Assembly (NCBI RefSeq): GCF_036320485.1
Contig: NZ_CP132911.1
Coordinates: forward strand, 2,542,001-2,606,000
Length of the DNA stretch: 64,000 bases
Source: Dyella sp. A6
Lineage (GTDB): Bacteria > Pseudomonadota > Gammaproteobacteria > Xanthomonadales > Rhodanobacteraceae
Direction of reading: 5' to 3'
Positions within the stretch are counted from its first letter, which is position 1. The number at the start of each line of letters is the position of its first letter. A program made the translations under genes and the position numbers. Of the stretch, positions 20,316 through 26,583 are shown piece after piece. Below the pieces are notes generated by a model. That model saw nothing but the letters and a program-made list of their open reading frames with translations, made no database searches and was not told the DNA's origin.

Positions 20316-20341
20316 TTCGCCGAAGGTACCCTCACGGTTAC
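20316..20341 (-). promoter_or_regulatory. Predicted ECF sigma promoter for the MXKDX gene
   Basis: Read on the minus strand: GTAACC (20341-20336), 16 nt, CGAA (20319-20316), about 60 nt before the ATG at 20254. It is identical in pattern to the site before dipZ, and matches the GTAACC-N16-CGAA consensus I recall for Caulobacter SigF, the sigma factor controlled by NrsF. Confidence 0.7.
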
Positions 20342-20361
20342 CTCGCTGCGTAAACGCCGCG

Positions 20362-21015
20362 TCAATGCCGCGTCAACAGTCGCCCGCCCATCGCCGCATT
20401 CAGCGCCACCACGATGCCTACCGCCAGCGCATGGGTCAGCAGGTCGGTGGCGGCAGCGTCGAAGGCGTGGCAGATCTCCAGCAGGCTGGCCGATGCCGCC
20501 GCGCTGGCCAATCCCACCATCATCGCCGCAAGCACCGGGCGCAACGGGCAGGCCCGGCGCAATAGCCAGATCATCAGCGCCGACAGCGGTATCGAGAAGC
20601 TGACGATGAACACCAGGCAATCGGTGGACTGATGCAGCGTGGCGATGCTGGTTCCCGGCGCCAGCCAGGTGCGCAGACAACCCACGCCGCTGGCGCCGAT
20701 CCACAGCAGCGCGCCCGGCAACGGCAGCCAGGCCCATGCACGCGAGCGCCCCGGCACACCAAGCGTGAACGCCGCCCATGCCGCCGACACGGCCGTCAGC
20801 ACCGCACCCGCGGCGGCCCAGGCCAGGTCGTGGGCTCCAGCCCAGCGTCGCAGCATGGGCGCGGTACCGTAATGGACCAGCAACACCACCGCGATCGCCG
20901 CCACTGCCAGCAGCCAGCAGAGCGTACGCAGCCAAGGCGGCAGCAGACGCCGCACCGGCGTCAGCTCTGCGCCCAGCGCGTCGATCAGGGCTTGGTGGCG
21001 TGGATCGGACGACAT
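20362..21015 (-). CDS. DUF1109/NrsF-like membrane anti-sigma factor
   Basis: 217 residues. After about 28 cytoplasmic residues (LGAELTPVRRLLPPW) there are six hydrophobic segments at roughly 31-49, 64-85, 94-112, 132-152, 159-178 and 191-210, the DUF1109/NrsF layout. Cys residues fall at 33, 113, 133, 156 and 182. In Caulobacter NrsF two conserved Cys near 131 and 181 (from memory) are needed for sensing; C133 and C182 are the natural candidates here. The start is 5 bp after the sigma-factor stop, so the two are co-transcribed. Expected role: hold the sigma factor at the inner membrane and release it upon a redox or heavy-metal signal. Confidence 0.85.
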   Translation of the reverse strand: MSSDPRHQALIDALGAELTPVRRLLPPWLRTLCWLLAVAAIAVVLLVHYGTAPMLRRWAGAHDLAWAAAGAVLTAVSAAWAAFTLGVPGRSRAWAWLPLPGALLWIGASGVGCLRTWLAPGTSIATLHQSTDCLVFIVSFSIPLSALMIWLLRRACPLRPVLAAMMVGLASAAASASLLEICHAFDAAATDLLTHALAVGIVVALNAAMGGRLLTRH

Positions 21016-21020
21016 GGGTA

Positions 21021-21677
21021 TCAGGGTTCTCCGTGCAGACGCCCGCGCAGGGCTTTCAGTGCGCGGTGCAGGTTCACTTTCAGGGCACCGGTGTTGCGCC
21101 CTGTGCGTTCGGCCACCTCGGCCAGCGATTGTTCCTTCAGGCCCAGCTCCTCGACCGCCTCGCGTTGTCCGGGCGGCAGGGTTTCGATCGCCGCGCGCAG
21201 GCGCGCGGCCTCCTGTGCACGCTCGCTGTCGACACTTGCATCGTCGTGGCCGTGCGCCAGGTCCAGCACGGACTCGTCGTGCACCTCGCGGCGATCGCGG
21301 CGTCCACGTCGACGCAATGCATCGATCGCCCGACGGCCCGCGATGGCAGCCAGCCAGGCATCGTAGGAACGAGCCGGATCGTAGGTGTGCCGCACCCGAT
21401 GCACGGTGAGCAGGGTTTCCTGCACCACGTCGTCGAGCAGATCGACCGGCACCCCGTGACGCCGTGCCACGCTGCGGACCAGCGCCACCGAATCGGCCAG
21501 CACGCGCTCGTAGGCGCGACGGTCGCCGGCCTGTGCGGCCGCCATCCACGCAGCGCGGCGCTGGTCGGCTGGCTCGTCAGGGCTGGAGGATTCGGCTGAC
21601 ACGCGCGCGCAGAGGTCCGATGACGGCGAAAGTCCATCATCTAGTACCCAGGTCGCCTCGGTGGTCAAGTGCAGCAT
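21021..21677 (-). CDS. ECF RNA polymerase sigma factor (SigF/NrsF-type module)
   Basis: 218 residues from the ATG at 21677 (GGA about 9 nt upstream and a predicted promoter just before it; the frame is open to 21698). Region 2: DLLDDVVQETLLTVHRVRHT and YDAWLAAIAGRRAIDALRRR. Region 4: LPPGQREAVEELGLKEQSLAEVAERTGRNTGALKVNLHRALKAL, a good helix-turn-helix. The N-terminal 35-45 residues are a polar extension not needed for the fold, so a GTG further in is possible. Immediately upstream of the DUF1109 anti-sigma gene. A GTAACG-N16-CGAA site in front suggests autoregulation. Confidence 0.88.
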   Translation of the reverse strand: MLHLTTEATWVLDDGLSPSSDLCARVSAESSSPDEPADQRRAAWMAAAQAGDRRAYERVLADSVALVRSVARRHGVPVDLLDDVVQETLLTVHRVRHTYDPARSYDAWLAAIAGRRAIDALRRRGRRDRREVHDESVLDLAHGHDDASVDSERAQEAARLRAAIETLPPGQREAVEELGLKEQSLAEVAERTGRNTGALKVNLHRALKALRGRLHGEP

Positions 21678-21709
21678 GCAGATTCCGCGGCAAAGCACTC
21701 ATCATGCGA

Positions 21710-21735
21710 TTCGCCGCATCCATCGCCGCCGTTAC
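21710..21735 (-). promoter_or_regulatory. Predicted autoregulatory ECF promoter of the sigma gene
   Basis: Minus strand: GTAACG (21735-21730), 16 nt, CGAA (21713-21710). One mismatch to the GTAACC -35 element seen at the two neighbouring promoters, same spacing. It lies 33 nt before the ATG at 21677, which supports that start. Confidence 0.6.
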
Positions 21736-21758
21736 TCCGTATCGGTTGCGACGAAGGT

Positions 21759-21784
21759 GTAACCGGCGCACCGATCACGGCGAA
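21759..21784 (+). promoter_or_regulatory. Predicted ECF sigma promoter of dipZ-msrB
   Basis: GTAACC (21759-21764), exactly 16 nt, CGAA (21781-21784), 36 nt before the dipZ ATG. It lies in the divergent sigma/dipZ intergenic region, back to back with the sigma gene's own site. Confidence 0.72.
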
Positions 21785-21819: not shown

Positions 21820-23547
21820 ATGATCCTGCTGCTTCTCGCCTATCTCGGCGGTGTGCTCACCATCCTCAGCCCGTGCATCCTGCCGGTGCTGCCATTCGTG
21901 TTCGCCCGTGCCGACCGGCCATTCATGCGCAACGGCCTGCCGATGCTGGCGGGCATGGCACTGACCTTCGCACTGGTCGCCACGCTGGCCGCGGTGGGCG
22001 GCGGCTGGGCCGTGCACGCCAACCAGTACGGCCGCATCGCAGCGCTGGTGGTACTGGCCCTGCTCGGCCTGACCCTGCTTTCCACGCATCTGGCCGAATG
22101 GATCACGCGGCCGTTCGTGGCGCTGGGCAACCGGCTGTCGCAGCGTTCGCACGATGACGGCGACTCGATCTGGGGCGCGGTGGGCCTGGGCATCGCCACG
22201 GGCCTGCTGTGGGCGCCCTGCGCGGGACCGATCCTGGGCCTGCTGCTGACCGGTGCGGCACTGAAGGGCGCCAGCGTGGCGACCACGCTGTTGCTGCTGG
22301 TCTATGCCGCTGGCGCAGCCACCTCGCTGGCTTTGGCGCTGGCCGTGGGCGGTCGCGTGTTCGCCGTGATGAAGCGGTCGCTGGGCGCGGGCGAGTGGAT
22401 CCGCCGCGTGCTGGGCGTGCTGGTGCTGTGTGGCGTGGCAGCGATCGCGCTGGGACTGGATACCGGTCTGCTCACCCGCGTTTCGCTGGCCAGTACCAAC
22501 CATATCGAGCAGACCCTGATCAATGCCGTGCGGCCCGCACCCGCCGAAGCCGCGGAAGCGCAGCCCAAGGCCGGGCAGGCACTGCCGGTGGAGGGGCGGT
22601 TCCCGTCGCTGGCCGGTGCCACCGGCTGGCTCAACAGCGCACCGCTGACGCGCGCCTCGCTGCGCGGCAAGGTGGTGCTAGTCGATTTCTGGACCTACTC
22701 CTGCATCAACTGCCTGCGTTCGCTGCCCTACGTCGAGGCCTGGTACAACAAGTACAAGGACCACGGACTGGTGGTGATCGGCGTGCATTCGCCGGAGTTC
22801 GCCTTCGAGAAGGACCCGGCCAACGTGGCGGCGGCGGTCAAGCGCCTCGGTGTCACCTACCCGGTGGCGCTGGACTCCGACTACGCCATCTGGCAGGGCT
22901 TCAACAACGAGTACTGGCCCGCCCACTACTTCATCGACGCACAGGGGCGTATCCGTCATCACCACTTCGGCGAAGGTGGCTATGCCGAGAGCGAGGACGT
23001 GATCCGTCGCCTGCTCGCCGACGCCGGCTACAAGAACCTGCCCGGCGGCTACGTGGACCCCGATGGCAAGGGTGCGGAAGCGGCCGCTCCCGGCGATGCC
23101 AACCGTTCGCCGGAAACCTATGTGGGTTATGCCCGCGCGGAGAATTTCGCCAGCGGCCAGGTAGCCCATGACGACCCGTTCGACTACCACGCCCCGGCCA
23201 CCCTGGCGACCAACCAGTGGGCACTGGACGGTCGCTGGACGGTGCACCCGCAGTCCGCCGTGCTGGAACGGGCCGGCGGCAGCATCACCTACCGCTTCCG
23301 CGGCCGCGACCTGCATCTGGTGCTGGGTCCGGGCAAGGACGGCAAGCCGGTACGTTTCCGCATCACCCTGGACGGCAAGGCGCCCGGCGCCGACCACGGC
23401 ATGGATACCGACGCCGCCGGCAACGGCACGGTGACCTCGCAGCGCCTGTACCAGCTGGTACGCCAGGCCCACGGCACCGGCGAGCGGGTGTTCGAGATCA
23501 CCTTCCTCGATCCGGGCGTGCATGCCTACGCCTTCACGTTCGGTTGA
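21820..23547 (+). CDS. dipZ: DipZ-like membrane thiol-disulfide carrier (CcdA + TlpA-type thioredoxin + C-terminal domain)
   Basis: 575 residues. Residues 1-225: CcdA/DsbD-beta-like membrane part with six or so TM segments and the redox Cys pair in ILSPCILPVLP and LLWAPCAGPILG. Residues 265-400: a periplasmic TlpA/AhpC-like thioredoxin domain, LVDFWTYSCINCLRSLPYVEAWY with active site C-I-N-C. Residues 430-575: a beta-rich C-terminal domain (YVGYARAENFASG ... RFRGRDLHLVLG) found in DipZ of actinobacteria and some proteobacteria. It carries electrons from the cytoplasmic thioredoxin pool to the periplasm. The msrB gene follows after 29 bp, so exported MsrB is the likely client. Confidence 0.9.
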   Translation: MILLLLAYLGGVLTILSPCILPVLPFVFARADRPFMRNGLPMLAGMALTFALVATLAAVGGGWAVHANQYGRIAALVVLALLGLTLLSTHLAEWITRPFVALGNRLSQRSHDDGDSIWGAVGLGIATGLLWAPCAGPILGLLLTGAALKGASVATTLLLLVYAAGAATSLALALAVGGRVFAVMKRSLGAGEWIRRVLGVLVLCGVAAIALGLDTGLLTRVSLASTNHIEQTLINAVRPAPAEAAEAQPKAGQALPVEGRFPSLAGATGWLNSAPLTRASLRGKVVLVDFWTYSCINCLRSLPYVEAWYNKYKDHGLVVIGVHSPEFAFEKDPANVAAAVKRLGVTYPVALDSDYAIWQGFNNEYWPAHYFIDAQGRIRHHHFGEGGYAESEDVIRRLLADAGYKNLPGGYVDPDGKGAEAAAPGDANRSPETYVGYARAENFASGQVAHDDPFDYHAPATLATNQWALDGRWTVHPQSAVLERAGGSITYRFRGRDLHLVLGPGKDGKPVRFRITLDGKAPGADHGMDTDAAGNGTVTSQRLYQLVRQAHGTGERVFEITFLDPGVHAYAFTFG

Positions 23548-23576: not shown

Positions 23577-24197
23577 ATGTCACGCATCGATGATGTTGTC
23601 GTCATGGAACGCCGCCGTTTCCTTCGCTCGGCCTTGGTCGGTGGAGCGGTCCTGGTCACTGGCGGCAGCCTGGCACTGCCACGCCTGCTTGCAGCCGGTG
23701 CCGACACCTGGCCACCCGGGCTGATCCACACCACTCCCGGCATGGTGCTGCTGGAAGTGTTCGCCGACGACGGCCGCGACCTGGGCCGGAAACGCCTGCC
23801 CCGGCTCGTGCTGAGCGACGCCGAATGGCATCGGCGACTGTCGCCGGCGGCCTTCGACATCATGCGTCGCAGCGGCACCGAGCGTGCCTTCAGCGGTCCG
23901 CACGAACGCCCCGCCGCACGCGGTATCTATCGCTGCGCAGGCTGCGCCACGGCCCTGTTCGACGACGCGACCCAGTTCGACTCCGGCACCGGCTGGCCCA
24001 GCTTCTGGCAGCCGATATCCCATCTCAACGTGATCGAACGCAACGACGACAGCCTTGGCATGGAACGTACCGAGGTGCGCTGTGCCCGCTGCGAAAGTCA
24101 CCTCGGCCACGTCTTCGACGACGGCCCGCGCCCGACCGGCCTGCGTTACTGCATGAACTCGCTGGCCCTGCATTTCGTGGCGCGCACGGCCGGCTGA
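23577..24197 (+). CDS. msrB: Tat-exported peptide-methionine (R)-S-oxide reductase MsrB
   Basis: 206 residues; ATG at 23577 with AGGGAG 6 nt upstream. The N-terminus ERRRFLRSALVGGAVLVTGG is a twin-arginine signal, so export in folded form is expected. The SelR domain (about 75-200) has both zinc pairs (YRCAGCAT and VRCARCESHLGHVFDDGP), the FDSGTGWPSFWQP core and the catalytic Cys in LRYCMNSLAL. It reduces R-methionine sulfoxide in proteins. Most MsrB are cytoplasmic; an exported version needs periplasmic reductant, and dipZ directly upstream supplies it. The operon sits under the predicted ECF promoter at 21759. Confidence 0.93.
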   Translation: MSRIDDVVVMERRRFLRSALVGGAVLVTGGSLALPRLLAAGADTWPPGLIHTTPGMVLLEVFADDGRDLGRKRLPRLVLSDAEWHRRLSPAAFDIMRRSGTERAFSGPHERPAARGIYRCAGCATALFDDATQFDSGTGWPSFWQPISHLNVIERNDDSLGMERTEVRCARCESHLGHVFDDGPRPTGLRYCMNSLALHFVARTAG

Positions 24198-24263
24198 AGC
24201 CACAGGCCGCTCCCGCGCCACGCCACCCTGACCGGCCGCATTGCCGACCGGCCCTGCGCTATG

Positions 24264-24282
24264 CATAATAAGAATTATTCGC
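24264..24282 (+). promoter_or_regulatory. Fur-box-like operator
   Basis: CATAATAAGAATTATTCGC matches the 19-bp Fur consensus at about 13 of 19 positions by my count and is an A/T island in GC-rich DNA. It lies about 175 bp upstream of the DUF3325-DUF3649-PepSY genes. No other feature was seen in 24198-24456. Confidence 0.55.
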
Positions 24283-24456
24283 ATTAACTGACAGACGTCG
24301 CGGCCTGTCCGGCGGTGCCCGGCAGCTGCATCGGGCCGGTCGCCACGGAACAAGCGTCGCCGCGTGGCATATCCGATCTCGCGCAGGGCCTTGCATGTCC
24401 AGACCTATTCCCCACCCGTCGTGCCGCTGCCGGTATCCAGCGCAGGACACACGCTC

Positions 24457-24750: not shown

Positions 24751-25013
24751 TGTGGGCCCGTGCGAGTGCCGGGGTCGTGCCCGGGTTCTTCCTGGTGACG
24801 GCCGTCATCGGGCTGGTCGACTGGCTGCTGCCCGGCCCCTGGCAGTCGGCCCTGGTGCCCAGCGTGCTGGCGTTCTGCCCGCTGTGGGTCGGGGTGATCT
24901 GCGCCAGCCTGCAGTTCGCGGGCGGTCGGCAGGCATGGCTGTGGCTGGGCGCGCTGGCCGGCACTGGACTGCTCCTGCTGCATGCGCTGCAGACGCTCGA
25001 CTGGGTCCGCTGA
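24750..25013 (+). CDS. Small membrane protein of iron-uptake cassette (DUF3649-like)
   Basis: 87 residues; the ATG overlaps the upstream stop by one base, so translation is coupled. Three hydrophobic helices: VVPGFFLVTAVIGLVDWLL, ALVPSVLAFCPLWVGVIC and AWLWLGALAGTGLLLLHAL. The F-C-P-L-W-V-G and R-Q-A-W-L-W-L pattern is like DUF3649 'iron uptake' proteins. Only context and topology support a role in iron handling. PepSY gene follows after 13 bp. Confidence 0.6.
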   Translation: MWARASAGVVPGFFLVTAVIGLVDWLLPGPWQSALVPSVLAFCPLWVGVICASLQFAGGRQAWLWLGALAGTGLLLLHALQTLDWVR

Positions 25014-25026
25014 GGCAGGCACAGCG

Positions 25027-26583
25027 ATGAAACTGAAATCCACCACCCTGCGGGCCTTCACCGCCCTGCACTCATGGGTCGGCCTGTGCGCAGGATTCGC
25101 GCTGTTCGTGGCGTTCTACGCGGGCGCCATCACCGTGTTCCAGCAACCGGTGCAGCAATGGGCCTCGCCGCGGACCGTCGCCGCGGCCTCGCTGGATGAC
25201 ATGCAAGGCCTGCTCGACCACGTGCTGGCCACGCATCAGGAAGCACGCATCCGGCTGGGCATGACCTTCCCCGGTTATGCAGGGAACAGCCCGACCGCCT
25301 ACTGGCCCGACCGCCACGGCACATGGCAGTTCGCGTCGCCGGAGCAGCCTGATGGCGGCCCGACCCTGCCCGGTGCCGCGCTGCCCGAGCTGATCAACGC
25401 ACTGCACTATTCGCTGGGCCTGCCGCTGGCCGGCATGTACCTGATGGGGGTGGTCAGCCTGCTGTACGGCATCGCCTTGGTCAGCGGCCTGATCATCCAC
25501 CTGCCTCGGCTGACGAAGGACCTGTTCGCCCTGCGCCCCGGACGCAACCTGAAACGCTTCTGGCAGGATGCGCACAACGCCATCGGCGTGCTGAGCCTGC
25601 CCTTCCATGCAGTGTTCGCCGTCACCGGCGCCATGCTGTGCCTGTCCGTGGTGCTGATGATGGCAATCGGCCCGCTGGCCTACCGTGGCCAGCTGCTGGG
25701 CGCATCGGCAACGGCGATGGACACTGCACCGCAGCGTCCCGTAACCGGTGTCGCCGCCACGCTGGCACCGGTTTCGACCTGGGTCGCACAGGCACGCGCG
25801 GTCGCACGACAACAGGGATTGCGGGATTTCGAGCCGCGCTACCTCAAGCTGTCGCATGCAGGCGATAGCCACGCGACCGTGGAAATCACCGGTGAGGTGC
25901 CACATGCCATGGCGACCGGCACGCTGGCGCTGGACGCCCATGACGGCACCTTGCTGGCTGACCAGTTGCCGGGCCAGCGCGACGCCAACCACGCCACTCT
26001 GGCCTGGGCATACGCGCTGCACTTCGGCGACTACGGCAATGCGCTGGTGCAATGGCTGTATTTACTGCTCGGACTCGGCGGCGCCTTCCTGTTCTATTCC
26101 GGCAATCTGCTGTGGATCGAGACGCGCCGTCGGCGCCAGCAGGCCGAGCAACGCCGTTCGTCGCGGCTGATGGCCCGCGCCACGGTAGGCGTGTGCATCG
26201 GCGTCTGCGTGGCGATCTCGAGCGCCGCGGTGGCTGCGCAGTGGCTGCCCCGGCTGGGCCTGTCGGTGGACAATGGCGAGCGCTGGGCGTGCTTCGTCAG
26301 CTGGGCGTTATGCCTGCTGTGGGCCTGCCTGCGCACACCGGCCCAGGCCGCGCGCGAACTGCTGTGGCTGGCCGCCGTAGTCACCGCAATGGTCCCGCTG
26401 GCGCACGGCATGGCCACCGGCGCGTGGTTCTGGCGCAGCGCGGCGGCCGGCCAGACTGCGATCGCCGCGGTCGACCTTGGCGCACTCGCCCTGGCCGCAG
26501 GCTTCGCCGCCATGGCTCGCGCTTCCGCACGCCGCGCCCGGACCGGCGAACCGAACAGCGTGTGGGCCGATACCCGCGAGTGA
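25027..26583 (+). CDS. PepSY-associated membrane protein (PiuB-like)
   Basis: 518 residues from the ATG at 25027. PF03929 pattern: FTALHSWVGLCAGFALFVAFYAGAI first TM, a periplasmic PepSY-like part, NALHYSLGLPLAGMYLMGVVSLLYGIALVSGLIIHLP, RFWQDAHNAIGVLSLPFHAVFAVTGAML (His pairs inside membrane helices, possible haem or iron ligands), HFGDYGNALVQWLYLLLGLGGAFLFYSGNLLWIE, then three or four more TMs. Family members are encoded with siderophore receptors and are proposed to reduce or release iron from siderophores. Here no TonB receptor is adjacent; the Fur-like box upstream supports iron control. Confidence 0.85.
   Translation: MKLKSTTLRAFTALHSWVGLCAGFALFVAFYAGAITVFQQPVQQWASPRTVAAASLDDMQGLLDHVLATHQEARIRLGMTFPGYAGNSPTAYWPDRHGTWQFASPEQPDGGPTLPGAALPELINALHYSLGLPLAGMYLMGVVSLLYGIALVSGLIIHLPRLTKDLFALRPGRNLKRFWQDAHNAIGVLSLPFHAVFAVTGAMLCLSVVLMMAIGPLAYRGQLLGASATAMDTAPQRPVTGVAATLAPVSTWVAQARAVARQQGLRDFEPRYLKLSHAGDSHATVEITGEVPHAMATGTLALDAHDGTLLADQLPGQRDANHATLAWAYALHFGDYGNALVQWLYLLLGLGGAFLFYSGNLLWIETRRRRQQAEQRRSSRLMARATVGVCIGVCVAISSAAVAAQWLPRLGLSVDNGERWACFVSWALCLLWACLRTPAQAARELLWLAAVVTAMVPLAHGMATGAWFWRSAAAGQTAIAAVDLGALALAAGFAAMARASARRARTGEPNSVWADTRE

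Follow-up and report, generated by a model that had tools for sequence, protein, structure and literature searches.

A probable ECF16-type regulon for the repair of oxidised methionine outside the inner membrane

Introduction

In the window, the whole stretch of 64,000 nucleotides analysed here, three copies of one promoter-like motif stand before an ECF sigma factor gene with its nrsF-like neighbour, before dipZ-msrB and before the gene of a methionine-rich MXKDX protein (Table 1). Do these genes form one regulon, and what would such a regulon serve? To our knowledge, the powering and induction of thiol-based MsrA and MsrB outside the inner membrane have been worked out in only a few bacteria. 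Our analyses suggested that the genes probably belong to an ECF16-type (SigF-like) regulon that repairs oxidised methionine outside the inner membrane. The existence of one regulon is well supported by sequence comparison; its signal, its electron path and the role of the MXKDX protein we infer.

Table 1. Genes and predicted promoters of the locus (window positions)
Feature	Position	Strand	Basis
MXKDX Met-rich exported protein, 124 aa	19880-20254	-	TIGR02953 41.4 bits, cut-off 41
Predicted ECF16-type promoter of MXKDX gene	20316-20341	-	GTAACC-N16-CGAA; motif scan
nrsF-like anti-sigma, 217 aa, six TM helices	20362-21015	-	PF06532 E 3.3e-21; alignments; AlphaFold model
ECF sigma factor gene	21021-21602	-	Sigma70_r2 + Sigma70_r4_2; orthologues in 90/197 family genomes
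Predicted promoter of sigma-nrsF	21710-21735	-	GTAACG-N16-CGAA; motif scan
Predicted promoter of dipZ-msrB	21759-21784	+	GTAACC-N16-CGAA; motif scan
DipZ: DsbD/CcdA-like membrane, TlpA-like CxxC and Thioredoxin_10 C-terminal domains	21820-23547	+	Pfam; PDB
MsrB	23577-24197	+	SelR E 3.7e-46; TIGR00357 169 bits

Results

Promoter Motif in the Window and the Host Genome

The sequence-only reading had described three motifs with 16-nt spacing, oriented toward the sigma gene, dipZ-msrB and the MXKDX gene, and the motif scan confirmed them: GTAACS-N16-CGAA matched three times in the 64-kb window vs 0.04 expected, and at least three matches arose in none of 100 shuffles. From CGAA to the start codon there are 61 nt for MXKDX, 35 nt for dipZ and 107 nt for the sigma gene, the last counted to a GTG at 21602 that was picked from the orthologues, with further in-frame starts at about 21677 and 21698. 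The divergent sites of sigma and dipZ together span 75 bp, with 23 bp between the -35 elements. The assignment to a SigF/ECF16-type promoter also held, GTAACC-N16-CGAA being printed for Caulobacter in the accessible text of PMC3511200.

The same reading had looked for support to scans of the whole genome and of related genomes, and the first gave none. The host genome (G000), a single contig of 3.72 Mb, contains 8 GTAACS-N16-CGAA matches vs 13 for the reversed pattern and no match to GTAACT-N16-CGAA, and eight relatives summed gave 56 GTAACC-N16-CGAA matches vs 53 for the control, exceeding it in 4 of the 8. Because the genome-wide number is at background, the motif count says nothing beyond the locus; enrichment was dropped as evidence, and only position and conservation carry weight. 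Five host matches lie outside the window, including one before msrA and one before trxB. By eye, matches L010 and L013 are apparently inside genes; match L009 has a membrane-protein-like frame ∼100 nt downstream.

Conservation of the Motif Before Sigma and dipZ

The second scan bore that reading out. Searching 197 family genomes with the sigma protein returned 95 with a match at E 1e-20, 90 of them with close orthologues (hereafter sigma-positive); five paralogous loci were set aside before counting, and the 76 loci compared are the window and 75 of the other 89 close loci. The strict motif (GTAACS-N16-CGAA) was found before sigma in 74/76 loci and the relaxed core (GTAAC-N17-CGA) in 76/76, and before dipZ the figures were 58/70 and 67/70, nine dipZ sites reading GTAACT and three loci (L046, L100, and L103) having not even the core. 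In five loci where msrB is present and dipZ missing, the promoter stands directly before msrB (four strict, one core). Spacer lengths from 10 to 23 other than the motif's own let the core match in at most 4 loci per gene, and 200 permuted motifs gave a mean of 0.05 and a maximum of 2 matches vs 117 for GTAACC-N16-CGAA. Between loci, the identity of the 16-nt spacer is only 0.37-0.44; that of the motif is 0.96-0.98, partly by construction, and is not independent evidence because sites were chosen by the motif core. In addition, among the matches listed for 80 loci from named records, which partly overlap the 76, the motif (strict or core) occurs before sigma in 79/79 loci where sigma was found and before dipZ in 69/71, being absent in L284 and L304. 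We take this cross-locus conservation as the proof that the motif is not chance.

Control dipZ genes behaved differently: none of 18 had the motif within 450 nt upstream, comprising seven genes of sigma-negative genomes, nine second copies in sigma-positive genomes and two partial copies. Genome G127 (L406), of the same genus, with no NrsF match and no MsrA match at E 1e-40, has kept dipZ, and the motif is absent there.

msrA, a Target Outside the Window

In the host genome, the motif also lies 34 nt before a lipoprotein-like MsrA gene (PF01625 E 2.1e-55) that is unlinked to the window locus. MsrA was matched at E 1e-40 in 87/90 sigma-positive genomes and was not found at that threshold in G069, G128, and G165. 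We examined 52 of the 87, namely the 30 best-scoring, including the window genome, and 22 that were picked. The core was present before msrA in 30/30 of the former (29 strict) and 22/22 of the latter (21 strict), that is, in 52/52 examined sigma-positive genomes (50 strict, 2 core only); an internal stop was reported in the msrA match of three of the 30 best (G104, G066, and G106). By contrast, the msrA promoter was found in 0/38 family genomes without the window sigma (20 without any NrsF match, 15 with canonical NrsF only and 3 more without), among which L198 offers only 200 nt of upstream sequence, could hide a site and is not a fair test. One of the sigma-negative genomes (G182, L201) has a near-match, GTAACC-N16-CGT, which stands before msrA at the usual distance and may be what is left of a site. 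In genus g24 alone, the msrA motif is present in 4/4 sigma-positive vs 0/7 fully readable sigma-negative genomes. As far as sequence can tell, this dependence of the msrA motif on the window sigma is the strongest evidence that this sigma reads the motif. The membership first proposed, sigma-nrsF, dipZ-msrB and MXKDX, is supported for these genes; it had missed msrA, outside the window.

Sigma Factor and Anti-Sigma Factor

The sigma factor has regions 2 and 4 only, a DUF1109/NrsF anti-sigma gene is its same-strand neighbour in 76/76 loci, and GTAACC-N16-CGAA precedes both the sigma operon and the target genes, with GTAACG at the sigma site of the window itself; all three are ECF16 traits. The neighbour had been called NrsF-like and proved a true NrsF by its PF06532 match. 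One ECF16 trait differs: the two NrsF cysteines C131 and C181. When 11 window-type sequences were aligned together with 4 canonical and 2 intermediate ones, the C131 column was the invariant C133 of the window type and the C181 column was His183. Cys113, Cys133, and His183 are constant in 75/75 complete window-type sequences, and a variable Cys182 occurs in 65/75. PF06532 scores of the window type are mostly about 60-81 bits vs about 205-248 for canonical NrsF of the same bacterial family, and the window protein reaches 16.5 bits on the NCBIfam NrsF equivalog vs a cut-off of 300. The cysteine pattern, with C181 replaced by His183 and Cys113 present instead, therefore marks a divergent subfamily. 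Named relatives, among the matches listed, come from Fulvimonas, Rhodanobacter, Dyella, Frateuria, and unclassified MAGs.

The AlphaFold model of the protein has six long helices (pLDDT 85). With a cytoplasmic N-terminus, helix order would place the 113-133 loop in the periplasm, which makes a Cys113-Cys133 disulfide switch plausible there. The NrsF profile had no sequence relative in the PDB at E 1, and Foldseek returned nothing at E 0.001 or better.

The dipZ-msrB Operon

DipZ joins a CcdA/DsbD-like transmembrane domain to TlpA-like and Thioredoxin_10 domains and matches DipZ (2hyx, E 3.1e-68) and CcdA (5vkv, E 8.1e-9) in the PDB. Separated from it by a 29-nt gap, msrB is the predicted second gene of the operon and follows dipZ in nearly all fetched loci; its product is probably exported, its N-terminal RRRFLRSA being twin-arginine-like by eye. 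In two relatives without the window sigma (L407 and L408), msrB, dipZ, and msrA follow one another on a single strand, an arrangement that we regard as independent evidence that DipZ serves both reductases. Downstream, an AT-rich, palindrome-like and, by eye, Fur-box-like stretch (24262-24288) precedes a hypothetical membrane gene and a PepSY_TM gene (24982-26583).

The MXKDX Gene and Its Slot

The MXKDX protein, above the TIGR02953 cut-off and with Met-rich repeats like MrpX/MXKDX proteins, contains 23 Met and 10 His and has a signal peptide ending AFA (by eye). TIGR02953 matched in 43/197 family genomes, and 30 MXKDX loci were examined. The promoter precedes 12/12 linked genes, two of them with the motif 238 and 299 nt away under automatic start choice, and 12/16 unlinked genes of sigma-positive genomes, the four without it belonging to genus g18; in sigma-negative genomes, it was found in 0/2 examined. 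The majority of loci have no MXKDX gene beside nrsF, and among the matches listed for the 80 named-record loci, some of them incomplete, the promoter occupies the MXKDX slot in just 19. The gene, carrying the motif in part of the genomes, is therefore a frequent accessory, and its status as a core member, as first supposed, has to be given up.

In 2/76 loci (L059:6761-8766 and L081:2540-4583), a bufferin-type operon, DUF2282-DUF692-DUF2063, replaces MXKDX in the promoter slot; Pfam domains were assigned on L059 only and carried over to L081 by near-identical sequence, L313 being a named copy of L081. The make-up of this operon is that of the bufferin operons in the accessible text of PMC12452194, where sigma/NrsF genes are given for Buf1 and not Buf2 clusters. 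Several loci (L045, L053, L065, L103, L105, and others) hold a second exported Met/Lys/Ser repeat protein with a MKVSRYAVLA-like start, located after nrsF about 1.6-1.9 kb past the sigma start, and the motif is absent from it.

MsrP and Other Motif-Led Genes

MsrP (NF003767) scored above cut-off in 43/197 family genomes and in 0/90 of those with the window sigma (Fisher P 4e-14, kinship ignored); the exclusion follows clades, so these are not 197 independent observations. The host genome has no NF003767 match at E 0.001, hence no MsrPQ-type system by that search, and weaker MsrP-like genes below cut-off occur in some sigma-positive genomes. In L400 (1501-2448) and L377, the motif leads a cytochrome b561 gene followed by an MsrP-like gene below cut-off, and a molybdenum-type branch may therefore belong to the regulon in a few genomes.

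The trxB gene was considered as a core member and dropped: its motif, 39 nt upstream in the host (C1:2097184-2097209) and in the near relative G041, was found in just 2/30 orthologues and is possibly a lineage-specific gain. Further motif-led genes occur in single relatives (L380, L383, L404, L382, and L381), including a catalase-family gene with a TM-like start (two genera), DoxX and carboxymuconolactone-decarboxylase-family genes (Pfam), and an rpoH-like gene at 137 nt (by eye).

Discussion

In the mechanism that we propose, NrsF would hold the sigma factor at the membrane until a periplasmic oxidant oxidises it, probably at the Cys113/Cys133 pair flanking the predicted periplasmic loop; the freed sigma factor would then amplify itself and turn on DipZ. 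DipZ would carry electrons from cytoplasmic thioredoxin to exported MsrB, for R-sulfoxides, and MsrA, for S-sulfoxides, and the MXKDX protein may act as a renewable methionine sink for the oxidant. Such a regulon would do what falls to MsrPQ in Azospira and Brucella. A hypochlorite-like oxidant is its most likely signal, with copper as the main alternative.

Comparison with known systems places this regulon within a family of related circuits. Caulobacter crescentus SigF-NrsF likewise pairs a sigma factor with a six-TM DUF1109/NrsF protein, and the promoter is identical (PMC3511200, accessible text). Unlike in the window, the targets given there are YedY and DUF2282/DUF692/DUF2063 genes, the msrA homologues are unchanged, and the NrsF, with C131 and C181, has the classical Cys181 where the window protein has His183. 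In Brucella BcrS-AbcS/bcrXQP, a DUF1109-controlled sigma factor drives an MXKDX protein and MsrQP, and PMC8315932 cites the same for the Azospira SigF/NrsF-yedYZ-mrpX system; the Azospira work (Melnyk 2015) is given here as told by the citing papers PMC8315932 and PMC4623255. In the available portions of these two papers, both systems share with the window an NrsF-type sigma factor, MXKDX and a periplasmic Met-sulfoxide reductase, and both respond to hypochlorite; PMC4623255 describes sigF/nrsF, yedYZ, and mrpX, and some of the perchlorate islands in it also carry exported msrA and msrB. Their reductase is MsrPQ/YedYZ, whereas here DipZ goes together with MsrA and MsrB, and the host genome gave no MsrP match. 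Bradyrhizobium japonicum EcfF-OsrA, with an ECF16 consensus and a DUF1109 anti-sigma factor, drives a DsbD-like protein, a membrane-anchored periplasmic thioredoxin and Msr enzymes, and its authors speculate on a DsbD-thioredoxin-Msr electron path (PMC3420878, accessible text). It differs from the window in its seven transcription units, its N14-15 promoter spacing and its DsbD-like and thioredoxin functions on separate proteins, and the accessible target table names nothing as MXKDX. Given these precedents in Brucella, Azospira, and Bradyrhizobium (PMC8315932 and PMC3420878, each in its accessible part), the supposition that the link of an NrsF-type sigma factor to dipZ, msrB and MXKDX was undescribed does not hold as a general statement. 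Other DUF1109 or ECF16 systems appear in the accessible text of PMC9751292 and PMC6180224; the sigma pair with Rhodanobacter homologues in that of PMC5507510 is a different one and was set aside as not relevant. In Haemophilus and Neisseria, too, an ECF sigma factor (RpoE2/sigma-E) controls Msr (MsrAB), as far as the accessible accounts go. There the anti-sigma factors are of other types, MsrAB is one fused protein and no MXKDX protein is known to take part.

What looks new is the combination of DipZ with MsrA and MsrB, no MsrP above cut-off in 90 sigma-positive genomes, and an NrsF with Cys113/Cys133 and His183. No DipZ-MsrA-MsrB-MXKDX regulon was among the literature matches listed, in a search that covered chiefly open-access papers. 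A broader reading is tentative and, in our judgement, somewhat short of an even chance: a distinct NrsF subfamily would sense through Cys113-Cys133 rather than C131/C181, an NADPH-thioredoxin-DipZ-MsrA/MsrB cycle would replace MsrPQ in this lineage, and the output slot would swap MXKDX for copper-binding bufferin. In this broader reading, the swap would imply one shared input, namely a chemical attack on sulfur in the periplasm by either hypochlorite or copper.

Several other explanations were weighed. An origin of the three motifs by chance, or their use by a different sigma factor, might seem in keeping with the background-level counts in G000 and the eight relatives, yet 0.04 matches were expected in the window, the conservation before sigma and dipZ extends to 74/76 and 67/70 loci, and the msrA motif separates sigma-positive from sigma-negative genomes without exception (52/52 vs 0/38), so that we regard this as extremely improbable. 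It is also improbable, if less so, that DipZ and MsrB have a different task, for instance in cytochrome c maturation or disulfide isomerisation, with incidental co-regulation of Msr. DipZ-like proteins are members of the DsbD/CcdA class, a class with roles in several pathways of the periplasm, and nine sigma-positive genomes keep promoterless second dipZ copies; against this stand the near-constant position of msrB after dipZ, the msrB-dipZ-msrA rows of L407 and L408, and the five dipZ-less loci where the promoter (four strict, one core) stands directly before msrB.

A response mainly to copper or other metals, in which MXKDX would chelate through Met and His like the DUF2282 bufferins and Msr would repair collateral damage, deserves more weight and is still rather unlikely. 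It would account for the 10 His and 23 Met of MXKDX and for the DUF2282 gene with DUF692 and DUF2063 partners in the slot of L059 and L081; paralogous sigma/NrsF loci of the same family (L082-L084) lie near bufferin-type genes (by eye) with the same motif, and in Caulobacter, SigF has bufferin-type genes under its control and responds to chromate and cadmium (PMC3511200, accessible text). However, the most conserved members, dipZ-msrB and msrA, are redox repair and not metal-binding genes, the bufferin swap is confined to 2/76 loci, the paralogous loci L063 and L064 are without the strict motif, and PMC8315932, in its available part, connects the MXKDX homologues of Brucella and Azospira with hypochlorite. 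Repair of oxidised methionine thus remains our preferred function. The locus matters in that both stereospecific reductases, a likely electron importer and a candidate sacrificial sink come under one promoter tracking one sigma factor across a family. It also offers natural comparisons, of MsrP lineages with regulon lineages and of MXKDX with bufferin in the same slot, which could settle the function of the MXKDX protein and what NrsF senses.

As to taxonomic range, the NrsF subfamily profile at E 1e-8 found, in 321 sampled genomes of the class, the window genome and three others (two clear matches, one weak), and the named subfamily loci, among the matches listed, all come from the host's family or unclassified MAGs; the system therefore seems mainly confined to the host's bacterial family. 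The two clear outside matches (L339 and L340) have the NrsF sigma pair and the same motif, with no adjoining dipZ seen, and there GTAACC-N16-CGAA points away from the pair (L339:4729-8777, L340:3406-4714). What follows the motif in L339 is, by eye, a bufferin-like set: a gene for an exported, Cys-rich peptide with EGKCG repeats, then one for a membrane protein and others that are DUF692-like and DUF2063-like.
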